A stretch of 52,390 nt of DNA from assembly GCA_017509045.1 (NCBI GenBank), contig JAFWQP010000043.1:1-52390 (forward strand). The letters are read 5' to 3'. Shown here one piece after another: positions 244-24,731 of the stretch. A program made the translations under genes and the position numbers. Position 1 is the first letter of the stretch, and each line of letters opens with the position of its first letter. The notes below the pieces were generated by a model. It saw only the letters and a list, made by a program, of their open reading frames with translations. It was not told the DNA's origin and searched no databases. This DNA is from Bacteroidales bacterium. GTDB taxonomy: Bacteria > Bacteroidota > Bacteroidia > Bacteroidales > P3.

Positions 244-386
244 TATCGTCTCATCCGATAAGCCCTGATGACTGATTTGGGTTCAAAGAGATGTATGTAA
301 ACCAGTGATGCAAATCTGTCAAAGTACTCTTGTTTGTGCCGTGTCTCTGCTGCCGCATTGCCTTGTGCTTTTCTTCGCCTCCTGAA

Positions 387-441
387 GCGAACCCAGAGCG
401 AAGGCAGAGCGAACCCAGAGCGAAGGCAGAGTGGAGGCACT
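387..441. repeat. Tandem 11-mer repeat, five units
   Basis: Units alternate GCGAACCCAGA and GCGAAGGCAGA (387-397, 398-408, 409-419, 420-430) and end in a diverged unit. The repeat is preceded by a small hairpin TTCGC...GCGAA. A related array lies at 8652-8684, also next to a hairpin whose arms have a different sequence. Confidence 0.85.
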
Positions 442-489
442 CCGTGAAAACGAATCCGAGATTGGCCATTTCCCGACCGTTTTCGAATG

Positions 490-497
490 CAAAGATA
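490..497 (-). promoter_or_regulatory. Orphan leftward Bacteroidetes-type -7 box
   Basis: On the minus strand this reads TATCTTTG followed by C, a perfect match to TAnnTTTG. A TTTG lies about 20 bases upstream. Transcription would run left through the 11-mer repeat and into the 3' end of the first gene on the opposite strand, where I see no believable gene. It could drive a small RNA or antisense transcript or be a relic. Confidence 0.4.
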
Positions 498-755
498 GTG
501 CGGAATAACGACATGACAAACTATTTTCGCAAAAAAATGTCACTTTTCCCTCTTTTATAAAAAAGAGGCTCTTTTTGGTGACAAAAGAGGCTCTCTTTGT
601 CACAAAGGGTGTATGAGGGTGAGTCATGAAAGACCGTTTCTATGGCTGTCAGATGAGGAAAGAAAACGATAATTTCAGGACTTGCAAATAAAGGTTTTTT
701 ACAGGATAGATGTAAGTAGATTATTATCAGTACGATAAATGATATTGGCTATCAC

Positions 756-780
756 AACTATGAACTATGAATTCATAGTT
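756..780. repeat. Heptad repeat ending in an 18-bp palindrome
   Basis: One AACTATG unit precedes AACTATGAA/TTCATAGTT, a perfect palindrome at 763-780. The 7-mer is the same as in the arms of the nearby element at 826-962, so this looks like a core-less or collapsed copy. Confidence 0.7.
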
Positions 781-825
781 TTTATACGTCAATTCTCACA
801 AATAACTGATATTTATATTGTTGCA

Positions 826-962
826 GAACTATGAACTATGAAATGCATTGTGTTTTGCTTTTTGCAATATGGGCTATAATATAATAATATTATATTATTA
901 TATTATAGAACCTCCTCAATGACCAAAATCATACGCATTTCACAGTTCATAGTTCATAGTTC
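826..962. repeat. Nested palindromic element A (GAACTAT heptad arms)
   Basis: The left arm is GAACTAT twice plus GAAATGC (826-846). The right arm (935-962) is its reverse complement apart from a six-base insertion. Inside is TGTGTTTTG, then an AT palindrome made of TAATA steps (about 875-907), then GAACCTCCTCAATGACCAAAA. The inner core matches element B (1204-1360) in order and sequence, but the arms of B are different. No gene is encoded. Confidence 0.85.
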
Positions 963-1203
963 GCGGTGAACACTTTTTACCCCATGCAATAAAAAAACGG
1001 ATTGTGTTTTTCTGCGGTGTTGGATTATTCTGCTGAAAAAATGAAGTCTTATGGAGTTGCATTCAAGGTGGTCATGTGAATACACTCGAAAAATGTACAA
1101 ATGACACAATATCAGTCGATAACCTAAATTGACACACTGAATGTCAAATAACATCTAACGCTCCGTTTTTGCATAATGTGCTAAAAACAAAAATGTTGCA
1201 CAA

Positions 1204-1360
1204 ATGTCCAATGTCCAATGTCCAATGCAATGTGTTTTGTTATTTCTATATGGCCTATAATATAATAATAATATAATAATTTATTATTATATTATTATTA
1301 TATTATAGAACTCTTCCAACAACCAAAAGAATATGCATTGGACATTGGACATTGGACTTT
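1204..1360. repeat. Nested palindromic element B (GTCCAAT heptad arms)
   Basis: The left arm is GTCCAAT three times plus GCA (1206-1229). The right arm (1335-1358) is its exact 24-bp reverse complement. The inner part is TGTGTTTTG, an AT palindrome of TAATA steps (about 1256-1309), then GAACTCTTCCAAC and ACCAAAA, the same layout as element A. The element ends about 30 bp from the stop of the ABC ATPase gene and could act as its transcription terminator. Confidence 0.88.
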
Positions 1361-1387
1361 CGCCCTCTCTGCTGTGTCGGATTTCGT

Positions 1388-3031
1388 TCAAACCCTTGGT
1401 ATGGCGGCGAGGAGGCGTTGGGTGTAGGGGTGCTGGGGGTGGGTGAAGATTTCGTCGGCGGGGCCTTGCTCTACGATGCGGCCTTGTTGCATGACTAGTA
1501 TACGGTCGGAGAGGTATTTGACGACGGAGAGGTCGTGGGTGATGAACAGGTAGGTGTAGCCGTATTGCTCTTTGAGTTCGTTGAGGAGGTTGAGCACCTG
1601 TGCCTGCACGGAGACGTCGAGGGCGGAGACGCTCTCGTCGCAGATGACCAGCTCGGGCTGCAAGATGAGGGCACGGGCGATGCATACGCGCTGGCGTTGT
1701 CCGCCGCTGAACTCGTGGGGGTAGCGGTTGTACCAGTCGGGTTCAAGTCCTACCTGCTGCATAAGGGTGAGGACTTTCTCTTTGACGGATAATCTTGTAT
1801 TACTCGCTCTGTGGACTTTTAGGGGCTCGGCTATTGCTTCGCCTATGGTGATGCGTGGGTTGAGGGAGGAGTAGGGGTCTTGGAAGACTATCTGCATTTT
1901 GCGGCGAAGGGCCTTTGTTTCGGCAGAGGTGAGTTGGTCGAGGCTGCGACCGTCGTATTCGATGGTGCCAGAACTGTGTTCGACCAGTTGCAGTATGGCG
2001 CGGCCTAGGGTACTCTTTCCACAGCCGCTTTCGCCAACAAGACCGAGTGTCTCGCCTCGGTAGATGTCGAAGGAGAGTCCGTCGACGGCTTTCAATTCTT
2101 TTTTCACCTTGCCGAAAACAGAGGTTTCGAGGGCATAGGTGACATCGAGGTCGCGGACACGTAGGAGGACAGTCGTGTCGTCGGTGACATTCATTGCTGC
2201 CGCACCCAGATAGTTCTCATTTTTTAATTCTCCATTCTCCATATCGAGAAAGTCCTTGACGGTCAGCAGGCGGCGTGGGCGGCTGTCGAGCGGGGGGCGG
2301 CAGGCAAGGAGCCCTTTGGTGTAGGGGTGCTGTGGGTGGTGTAGCACCTGTTGGGCGGGACCGTGCTCGACAATCTCGCCGTGGTACATCACCGCCACGT
2401 TGTCGGCGATTTGGGCTATGACACCTAGGTCGTGGGTGATGAAGATGATGCCCATGTGGTATTTCTGCTGGAGGCTGCGGAGGAGGTCGATGATGGTTTT
2501 CTGCACGGTGACATCGAGGGCGGTGGTGGGCTCATCGGCAATAAGGAGGTCGGGGTGGCATATCAGTGCCATGGCTATCATGACACGTTGCTTTTGTCCG
2601 CCGCTGATTTCGTGGGGGTAGCTGCGGTAAATCTTCTCGGGACGGGGCAGCATCACCTCTTCGAATAGTTGGATGGTGCGTTGGCGTGCCTCCTGTCGCG
2701 ACACCTTTTCGTGTGCCAGCAGCATCTCTTCGACCTGTTTGCCGCAACGTTGCACGGGGTTGAGACTGGTCATGGGCTCTTGGAAAATCATAGAGACACG
2801 TCCGTGAAGGTCGGTCCATGAACCTGAGATATGTGCTGTTTTGGGAAGCAGTCCCATGATGGCAAGCGAAGTGACGGACTTGCCGCTGCCGCTCTCGCCC
2901 ACAATGCCTAGTGTGGTGCCACGACTAACCTCGAAGGTGACTCCTTTGACGGCTTCGATATATTCGCCGTCGTGAGGAAATGAAACATGCAAATCATCAA
3001 CTTTCAATACTATTTCGTCCATGGCATCCAA
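1388..3031 (-). CDS. Fused two-domain peptide-type ABC transporter ATPase
   Basis: A 547-residue protein with two complete ABC ATPase domains of the oligopeptide/dipeptide (DppD-DppF) type in one chain, as in YejF or GsiA. Domain 1 has Walker A GESGSGKS at 45-52, signature ISGGQKQR near 142-149 and Walker B LLIADE near 162-167. Domain 2 has GESGCGKS near 333-340, FSGGQRQR near 441-448 and VICDES near 462-467. Each domain carries the C-terminal HPQHPYT motif typical of this family. It would power import of peptides or similar solutes at the inner membrane, but no permease or binding protein is next to it. The linker at about 264-276 (MENGELKNENYL) is encoded by heptad repeats. ATG at 3031 is used; the Met at residue 4 is a possible alternative start. 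Divergent from rocD. Confidence 0.93.
   Translation of the reverse strand: MDAMDEIVLKVDDLHVSFPHDGEYIEAVKGVTFEVSRGTTLGIVGESGSGKSVTSLAIMGLLPKTAHISGSWTDLHGRVSMIFQEPMTSLNPVQRCGKQVEEMLLAHEKVSRQEARQRTIQLFEEVMLPRPEKIYRSYPHEISGGQKQRVMIAMALICHPDLLIADEPTTALDVTVQKTIIDLLRSLQQKYHMGIIFITHDLGVIAQIADNVAVMYHGEIVEHGPAQQVLHHPQHPYTKGLLACRPPLDSRPRRLLTVKDFLDMENGELKNENYLGAAAMNVTDDTTVLLRVRDLDVTYALETSVFGKVKKELKAVDGLSFDIYRGETLGLVGESGCGKSTLGRAILQLVEHSSGTIEYDGRSLDQLTSAETKALRRKMQIVFQDPYSSLNPRITIGEAIAEPLKVHRASNTRLSVKEKVLTLMQQVGLEPDWYNRYPHEFSGGQRQRVCIARALILQPELVICDESVSALDVSVQAQVLNLLNELKEQYGYTYLFITHDLSVVKYLSDRILVMQQGRIVEQGPADEIFTHPQHPYTQRLLAAIPRV
2213..2243 (-). repeat. Heptad repeat translated as the ABC ATPase linker
   Basis: In gene sense the DNA reads ATGGAGA, ATGGAGA, ATTAAAA, AATGAGA, a run of 7-mers like those of the dispersed heptad elements. 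It encodes MENGELKNEN between the two ATPase domains and keeps the frame open. Confidence 0.6.
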
Positions 3032-24618: not shown

Positions 24619-24731
24619 GTTATCCTATCGTTATACCTTAGTTATACCTTAGTTATACCTTAGTTATTCTATATATAATAGTATAACTAAGGTATAACTA
24701 AGGTATAACTAAGGTATAACGATAGGATAAC
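24619..24731. repeat. 49-bp perfect inverted repeat built from 11-mers
   Basis: The left arm (24619-24667) is GTTATCCTATC followed by three copies of the 11-mer GTTATACCTTA and GTTAT. The right arm (24683-24731) is its exact reverse complement, with a 15-base AT-rich loop between. Further out CCTTACT and AGTAAGG also pair. No gene is contained. The spacer 24466-24871 holds nothing else beyond the lipocalin promoter. Confidence 0.95.

Follow-up and report, generated by a model that had tools for sequence, protein, structure and literature searches.

Heptad-armed intergenic hairpins in a Bacteroidales genome: arm words that differ between copies and mostly match within a copy

INTRODUCTION

The foldback transposons FB and Galileo of Drosophila possess long, internally repetitive inverted repeats and occur also with solo or mismatched arms; their subfamilies differ in arm sequence and swap the central region, for which the available text of the source invokes ectopic recombination and conversion (PMC3573991). 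The repeat described here is like these elements, as far as that text portrays them, in its internally repetitive inverted arms and in the occurrence of solo-arm and mismatched-arm copies (PMC3573991). As in foldback elements, its inverted terminal repeats are internally built of short tandem repeats; unlike FB and Galileo, it is bacterial, spans about 150 bp, and has arms of about 24 bp composed of 7-mers, with words that are mostly one base apart. By its arm architecture it is best likened to the foldback elements, which is a likeness rather than an established membership.

REPINs, which go with RAYT transposases, have as their ends the conserved part of a hairpin-forming doublet, according to the accessible portion of the source (PMC3116915). 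They share with the present repeat the many intergenic hairpins of two inverted modules, and REPIN singlets are described there as remnants; unlike REPINs in that account, the heptad-arm hairpin has variable outer arms and a conserved inner motif (PMC3116915), i.e., its ends are the variable part. Nor are there constant terminal inverted repeats as in MITEs, the arm words differing between copies. BrickBuilt, a MITE of Porphyromonas gingivalis for which promoter activity in both directions is reported, is likewise an intergenic miniature element of Bacteroidales with tandem repeats; unlike the heptad hairpin, it has, in the part of its description at hand, a direct repeat of 23 nt, terminal inverted repeats that are short, and no inverted heptad arms (PMC4596501). 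Heptameric repeats are over-represented in Xanthomonas and Nostoc, where polymerase slippage has been proposed (PMC4692102), and a TAACTGA heptamer is repeated in Beggiatoaceae (PMC4679880). These simple repeats are intergenic and of period 7, as is ours, in which tandem 7-mers are over-represented as well; as excerpts of both papers depict them, they are direct, with one heptad type per genome, and lack matched inverted arms with a shared core (PMC4692102, PMC4679880). Finally, replication template switching is a published DNA-level source of paired hairpin changes, described in the available pages for RNA genes (PMC8794818); such homogenization should also reach inner stems, which the heptad hairpins do not show.

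In the open full-text literature, as far as its text was accessible, no description was found of a bacterial foldback-like combination of internally repetitive, matched inverted arms with a shared core. The repeat is a new variant among palindromic intergenic repeats.

RESULTS

Elements A and B

The window, i.e., the whole analyzed stretch of 52,390 nucleotides, contains two palindromic elements that had been described in a first-pass annotation made from the letters alone. Both are present where they had been placed, with palindromic arms, and the observation as such is confirmed, whereas its interpretation is partly supported. The relevant features are the following.

310-600, minus strand: module U, an intergenic sequence of high copy number to the left of the hairpin, defined by own-genome matches and coverage of the fetched loci
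489-497 (GCAAAGATA) and 517-520 (CAAA), as read on the plus strand: putative Bacteroidetes-type promoter in module U, pointing left, assigned by eye
763-780, no strand: upstream 18-bp perfect palindrome AACTATGAATTCATAGTT, an inverted dimer of the arm word of element A
826-962: element A, hairpin with heptad arms
826-845, plus strand: left arm of element A, about two and a half ATGAACT units (GAACTAT in the phase of the first-pass annotation)
874-908, no strand: AT palindrome of element A, 17-bp arms with a 1-nt center
943-962, minus strand: right arm of element A, innermost unit GTGAAAT
about 1203-1360: element B, hairpin with heptad arms
1203-1229, plus strand: left arm of element B, GTCCAAT three times, then the beginning of the constant motif
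1255-1308, no strand: AT palindrome of element B, 25-bp stem
1334-1360, minus strand: right arm of element B, three units, complement of the left arm

In element B, the outer stem comprises 24 consecutive base pairs (1206-1229 with 1334-1357) and the AT stem 25 (1255-1279 with 1284-1308); the predicted fold has -72.3 kcal/mol (z = -15.16), and none of 200 shuffles was as good. In element A, complementarity between the arms (826-845 and 943-962) amounts to 95% over 20 nt. It is thus inexact, the right inner unit being GTGAAAT and the left one ATGAAAT. No match at the gathering score of Rfam 15 was obtained in the window.

The cores of A and B align with a local score of 76, whereas dinucleotide shuffles gave a mean of 26.9 and a maximum of 50, with none of 1,000 as high. 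The similarity of the whole core thus survives the control for AT-richness, which had been named beforehand as a possible source of the likeness. Taken alone, the part to the left of the AT palindrome scored 33 (shuffled mean, 15.0; 0 of 1,000); the part to the right alone was not significant in the pairwise comparison (138 of 1,000 dinucleotide shuffles) and aligns across the 28 elements of an alignment termed A1, which were hand-picked from BLAST hits. The arm words ATGAACT and GTCCAAT, set in register, differ at four of seven positions, which agrees with the initial description of the arms as unrelated; that description falls short in that three intermediate words from other copies join them by the path ATGAACT-GTGAACT-GTGAAAT-GTCAAAT-GTCCAAT, each word of which occurs as an arm in this genome.

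The repeat family and its genomic setting

A covariance model built from 28 copies located the repeat in at least 42 distinct places of this gut Bacteroidales assembly (2,710,724 bases, 154 contigs), a lower bound corresponding to 50 matches with both strands counted and at most 50 candidates scored per genome. DNA searches of the same genome gave 59 matches with A and 49 with B, both strands and overlapping places included. The prediction that many copies would combine the same core with copy-specific complementary arms was borne out by this genome search.

Two inverted arms surround an AT-rich hairpin, each consisting of about two to four copies of a heptad word and a constant motif, TGCAATGTGTTTT. 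Specifically, the heptad word lies outside, followed inward by the constant motif TGCA[AT]TG..TTTT (TGCAATGTGTTTTGG), and the right arm mirrors this order. The arm size, judged by eye, is roughly 24 bp, also where the period is 6 or 8. In many elements the word occurs once or twice more upstream; it forms a palindrome there in type Ia (e.g., window 763-780) and is present as an inverted copy in type 2. Solo arms occur on contigs C54, C50, C20, C112, and C21.

The hairpins are short, AT-rich, and intergenic in many copies, with genes called by a longest-ORF heuristic. Many type-1 copies sit in a larger intergenic unit with an outward-directed putative promoter. Module U has at least 45 own-genome matches, pieces counted (40 of 121 candidates scored). 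The Bacteroidetes promoter consensus is TTTG/TAnnTTTG; the putative promoter in U reads TTTG-N19-TATCTTTGC on the minus strand and is directed away from the hairpin. The search for sharp ends of the unit found none, many matches on the left starting at scattered places between 297 and 396. Gene orientation around the units is mixed. The 10 neighboring proteins that were scanned (nine from this genome, one from the related genome G037) look ordinary: a ferredoxin-type protein, arginine deiminase, carboxyltransferase, cysteinyl-tRNA synthetase, GcpE, RecJ, a flavin reductase, an M1 peptidase, and two proteins without a Pfam match. Among perfect tandem runs of at least 18 bp, period 7 is the commonest (36 of 81 runs in 283 kb; none of this period in a second-order Markov control).

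Several other repeats were noted alongside. Module U contains tandem 11-mers (AGAGCGAACCC/AGAGCGAAGGC, window 386-440) with matches at many other fetched loci. Octad hairpins (GCTACAGT) form recurring arrays with heptad hairpins of types 2 and 1, beside or between which they lie; the arrays have three parts at loci L023, L033, L035, and L038 and two in the fetched stretch of L036, L041, L050, and L051. One octad hairpin (L041, 471-647) includes a short palindromic repeat (AACCCAAATCGG...TTAGGGTTT) that is absent from the other listed copies and was seen at several loci. A tandem-armed hairpin with the 11-letter word GTTATACCTTA lies at window 24630-24710 and also on contig C25 of genome G000 and near the Y1 transposase gene of contig C78. 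A degenerate core, TGCTGCCGCACCCAGATA, with TTCTCCA-like tracts occurs inside an ABC transporter gene (window 2195-2260), where it falls within the linker that joins the two ATPase halves; the linker length also varies in L114, the nearest named relative. A second core family, GGCTGCCGCACCCGGATA (L198, L199, L210, and L234-L263), gave 44 hits at up to three mismatches, versus 3 for the reversed control; its period-7 tracts differ by copy, and the two sides are often noncomplementary.

Arm words

Left and right arms were compared in 48 elements (45 from this genome and 3 from G037) picked by the presence of both inner motifs, arm complementarity not being demanded; this set, 44 elements before four of B type were added, consists of two-armed copies and thus passes over solo arms and copies truncated at the end of a contig. 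The second unit was identical on both sides in 33, shared the first five letters in 8, was one word at a shifted spacing in 5, and differed in 2. With random pairing of left and right arms, 144 of 1,892 pairs matched (7.6%; 44 elements). In alignment A1 (28 elements, 21 arm pairs), 94.0% of the positions were paired; at 16 pairs, 110 cells were changed on both sides, compared with 31.8 ± 4.5 after shuffling, and 5 cells were changed on one side, so the paired change that had been postulated for the arms is found. A1 has 6 G-U and 9 A-C cells, so that neither strand is favored as an RNA.

The common words, set in register with the inner motif, are GTGAACT, GTGAAAT, ATGAACT, GTTAAAT, GTCAAAT, GTCCAAT, GTTCACT, GTCACAA/T, GTTACAA, and TTTACAT; GTCCAAT tandems are present on seven contigs. 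Among the words counted at least twice in the 44-element set, two out-of-register words being dropped, 8 of 10 form one component connected by single-base steps, and GTTCACT and TTTACAT lie outside. GTCCAAT, contributed by the added B-type elements, is one step from GTCAAAT. When letters were shuffled within words, the component never exceeded 3 in 2,000 trials; a column-preserving shuffle reached a component of 8 in 129 of 2,000.

Of the 44 left arms, 35 have an innermost unit that agrees with the next one in its first five letters, as do 32 of the 44 right arms; a second unit that ends in AT and equals the innermost one is present in 40 of 96 arms. The latter number is as expected if the innermost unit, the end of which belongs to the constant motif, were often the donor of slippage.

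Intermediate states and flanking copies

The window stretch has a duplicate on contig C9, with 92% identity over 307-1251. At the position of B, the duplicate carries GTCAAAT arms versus GTCCAAT in the window, and the upstream copy is GTCAAAT at both, so that within a shared flank the word of B has changed either in place or by local exchange. Half-changed elements were found as well: in L325, GTGAAAT is present three times in the left arm only, with GTGAACT in the right arm and flank, and L314 and L315 have GTTAAAT on the left arm only. Mixed arms occur in L199, L207, L027, L041, L023, and element A, with three words within one arm in L199 and L207.

Flanks were tabulated for type-2 elements after 11 of 34 rows had been dropped as chance pattern hits. 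In this genome, the word found in the second arm unit is also present in the flank of 15 of 21 elements; the flank matches with the innermost unit only in L199 and L207, and there is no match in L048, L210, L314, and L325. L315, which the type-2 search pattern missed, likewise fails to match its flank, and both type-2 rows of G037 combine GTTCACT arms with a GTGAAAT flank. At the upstream palindrome site, the copies on C9, C135, C109, and C26 carry their own arm word and that on C119 nearly so; in B-type copies this site is often a one-step neighbor of the arm word. Arms and upstream or flank copy have a common word over tens to about 200 bp despite drift in between, and the heptad word is better conserved than its spacing. 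A control with swapped words (mean, 8.35 own versus 6.31 swapped) was disturbed by neighboring hairpins and was given no weight.

Changes that are not concerted

Pairwise comparisons were made within core clades (upstream flank identity of 0.75 or more) of 43 elements with up to 4 mismatches in 16 between the arms, a choice that favors matched arms; the comparisons overlap, each element pair being counted in both directions, and clade labels were set by hand from a tree of the cores. Between elements with different words, 61 to 74% of the changed arm pairs were double Watson-Crick changes, whereas elements with the same word showed 0 or 1 double arm change per clade. In the inner AT stem, double changes amounted to 0 to 14% in different-word and 0 to 25% in same-word comparisons, the higher of the same-word figures resting on few changes. 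Since same-word arm differences are almost all unpaired, no running correction between the arms is seen, and the pattern in arms and inner stem indicates that words, rather than pairing as such, are visibly maintained. General palindrome correction as the sole cause was rejected, because inner AT stems change mostly unpaired. In the GTGAAAT group, spacing irregularities are not common to both arms, which argues that long tracts are not copied from arm to arm. Arm-to-arm copying, as suggested in the first-pass annotation, is plausible but not needed for every change: spread of the innermost unit within each arm could account for part of them, and paired changes between same-word elements are almost absent.

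The tree of 42 cores (L087 left out, two spellings of one word merged) implies 19 word changes for 10 words; many of its branches are weakly supported, it has no shuffle control, and type-2 hairpins, oriented by a regular expression, may be reversed in it relative to type 1. The GTTAC, GTCAC, and ATTTTAC types as well as ATGAACT, GTGAAAT, and GTTCACT are found in more than one core clade, and this recurrence needs exchange between elements, restricted outcomes, or selection.

Occurrence in related genomes

With strict filters, the covariance model matched in at least 6 of 59 genomes of a genus sample, the own genome included. In a family sample it matched in at least 9 of 190, again including the own genome, and all of these belong to this genus (1 of 12 genera); the other 11 genera gave no match among up to 15 candidates scored per genome. 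Other species of the genus have a similar architecture built on different words. One core has different arms, i.e., GTAGATG-type in G046, GTGAAAT in G120, and a mixture in G102; further arm words are GTGTCAAA octads in G014, TGACAGT in G014 and G041, GTTCCA in G041, the octad GCTACAGT in G000 and one G041 locus, and GTTACAGT in another G041 locus. When inverted repeats with tandem arms of any word were scanned for, 3 were found in the window and 6 in 231 kb of other own-genome contigs (one of them, on C8, belonging to the heptad-hairpin family). Two other species of the genus, covered over 140 kb each, gave 5 and 3, whereas 120 kb of a third species and Markov controls gave none. Note that this sampling was not strictly unbiased, as five low-numbered contigs with earlier hits were left out and the G041 and G014 stretches came from contigs with model hits. 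The transporter gene of the window is closest to records from uncultured Bacteroidales. In the nearest named relative (L114, 86% identical protein), no element lies beside the same transporter gene; the other neighbor differs there, so the insertion point is unreadable. Plasmid and phage collections queried with window 300-1365 and viral contigs searched with one exact 29-letter pattern gave no match.

DISCUSSION

The words differ between copies, mostly match within a copy, and are mostly linked by single bases, and mixed and half-changed states occur. We consider it reasonably probable that the repeat is a genome-specific, foldback-like, noncoding intergenic element whose arms evolve in concert via tandem slippage and short inter-arm exchange. 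A base change in one unit would spread along the arm through tandem slippage, with the innermost unit, whose last letters lie in the constant motif, often serving as the donor; the changed word may then reach the other arm, and occasionally the upstream copy, by short-tract exchange between inverted copies, e.g., through replication template switching. The elements were probably dispersed over the genome by recombination or through a transposase acting in trans. Concerted evolution of tandem words explains the word network, the mixed arms, and the lagging flank, but leaves two points unexplained, namely why the flank should follow the arms and why words recur across clades. It also has to face that the AT stem, a good substrate for template switching, changes mostly unpaired, that in 6 of 21 type-2 elements the flank copy lags behind or differs, and that the elements are not independent of each other.

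The two unexplained points would be accounted for by a factor that reads the words, which in turn needs many factors. In iteron plasmids, tandem half-sites are combined with an inverted operator, and the word could similarly be a half-site bound by a protein, shifting as different protein variants are followed. This reading is unlikely. In its favor, arms and upstream or flank copy keep a common word while the intervening sequence drifted, the word is kept better than the spacing, partnerless solo arms still have repeated words (mixed in C54), and identical words reappear in separate core clades. It would, however, demand as many proteins as there are words, about a dozen in this genome; flank copies are often unlike the arms (G037 type 2, L210, L314, and L325); and a search for Y1 transposases, the sole reader family searched, gave two genes, neither linked to the hairpins. 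A related proposal, to which we assign a low probability, is that the word acts as an address, with a transposase, regulator, or guide RNA in trans reading the arm tandems and the upstream dimer and with hairpin lineages having rewritten their words for new readers; about a dozen addresses would then coexist in one genome. Selection on an RNA or single-stranded DNA structure, in which compensatory changes keep a transcribed hairpin paired and the upstream copy possibly competes for the left arm, is disfavored and unlikely. The very stable fold (z of -15), the strong covariation in A1, the alternative pairings open to upstream copy, left arm, and right arm, and the G-U pairs in 101 of 613 changed arm pairs of different-word type-2 comparisons would fit it; A1, however, has 110 double changes and only 6 G-U versus 9 A-C cells, decay of the inner stem in types 2 and Ib is unpaired, Rfam gave no match in the window, and the putative U promoter points away from the hairpin.

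Two further explanations concern the origin of the ends. Given the high-copy intergenic hairpins, the arrays of mixed hairpins, the solo arms, and a Y1 transposase gene in the genome, a REPIN/RAYT-type or transposase-borne miniature element with merely polymorphic ends, its arm match inherited from few founders, comes to mind. We nevertheless judge it very unlikely, as few founders by themselves do not explain the half-changed elements or a word change inside a shared flank (C9 versus the window; type 2 at about 90% flank identity), and the better Y1 gene, on C78, sits among other, GC-rich palindromes. Of the two Y1 genes, this one has an 11-mer hairpin and octad-word tracts within 3.3 kb; neither could be tied to the heptad hairpins. 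At L052 (1-2500), a Y1 transposase gene lies amid GC-rich CCCCGTAGGGG-type palindromes and CGAAT-word hairpins, and this locus looks like a conventional REP/transposase locus. The other explanation, offered in the first-pass annotation, is that a 7-mer present at the site is adopted for the ends of the element or that whole arms are swapped between unrelated sequences. Copy-specific arms with the word outside and the constant motif inside would suit it, but the same word is found at many places, most words are point-mutation neighbors in a fixed register, and the inner units of some elements keep a neighboring word. Uptake of a local 7-mer was rejected on the first two of these grounds, and the explanation as a whole is highly improbable.

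Concerted evolution has mostly been inferred from long eukaryotic arrays. In the present case, a single bacterial genome displays step-like states side by side in several dozen small units that can be compared: the new word occupies one unit, one arm, or both arms, and the flank may or may not have it. The matching of inverted arms is thus open to a direct test in this repeat, which offers a natural record of repeat DNA being rewritten in concert.
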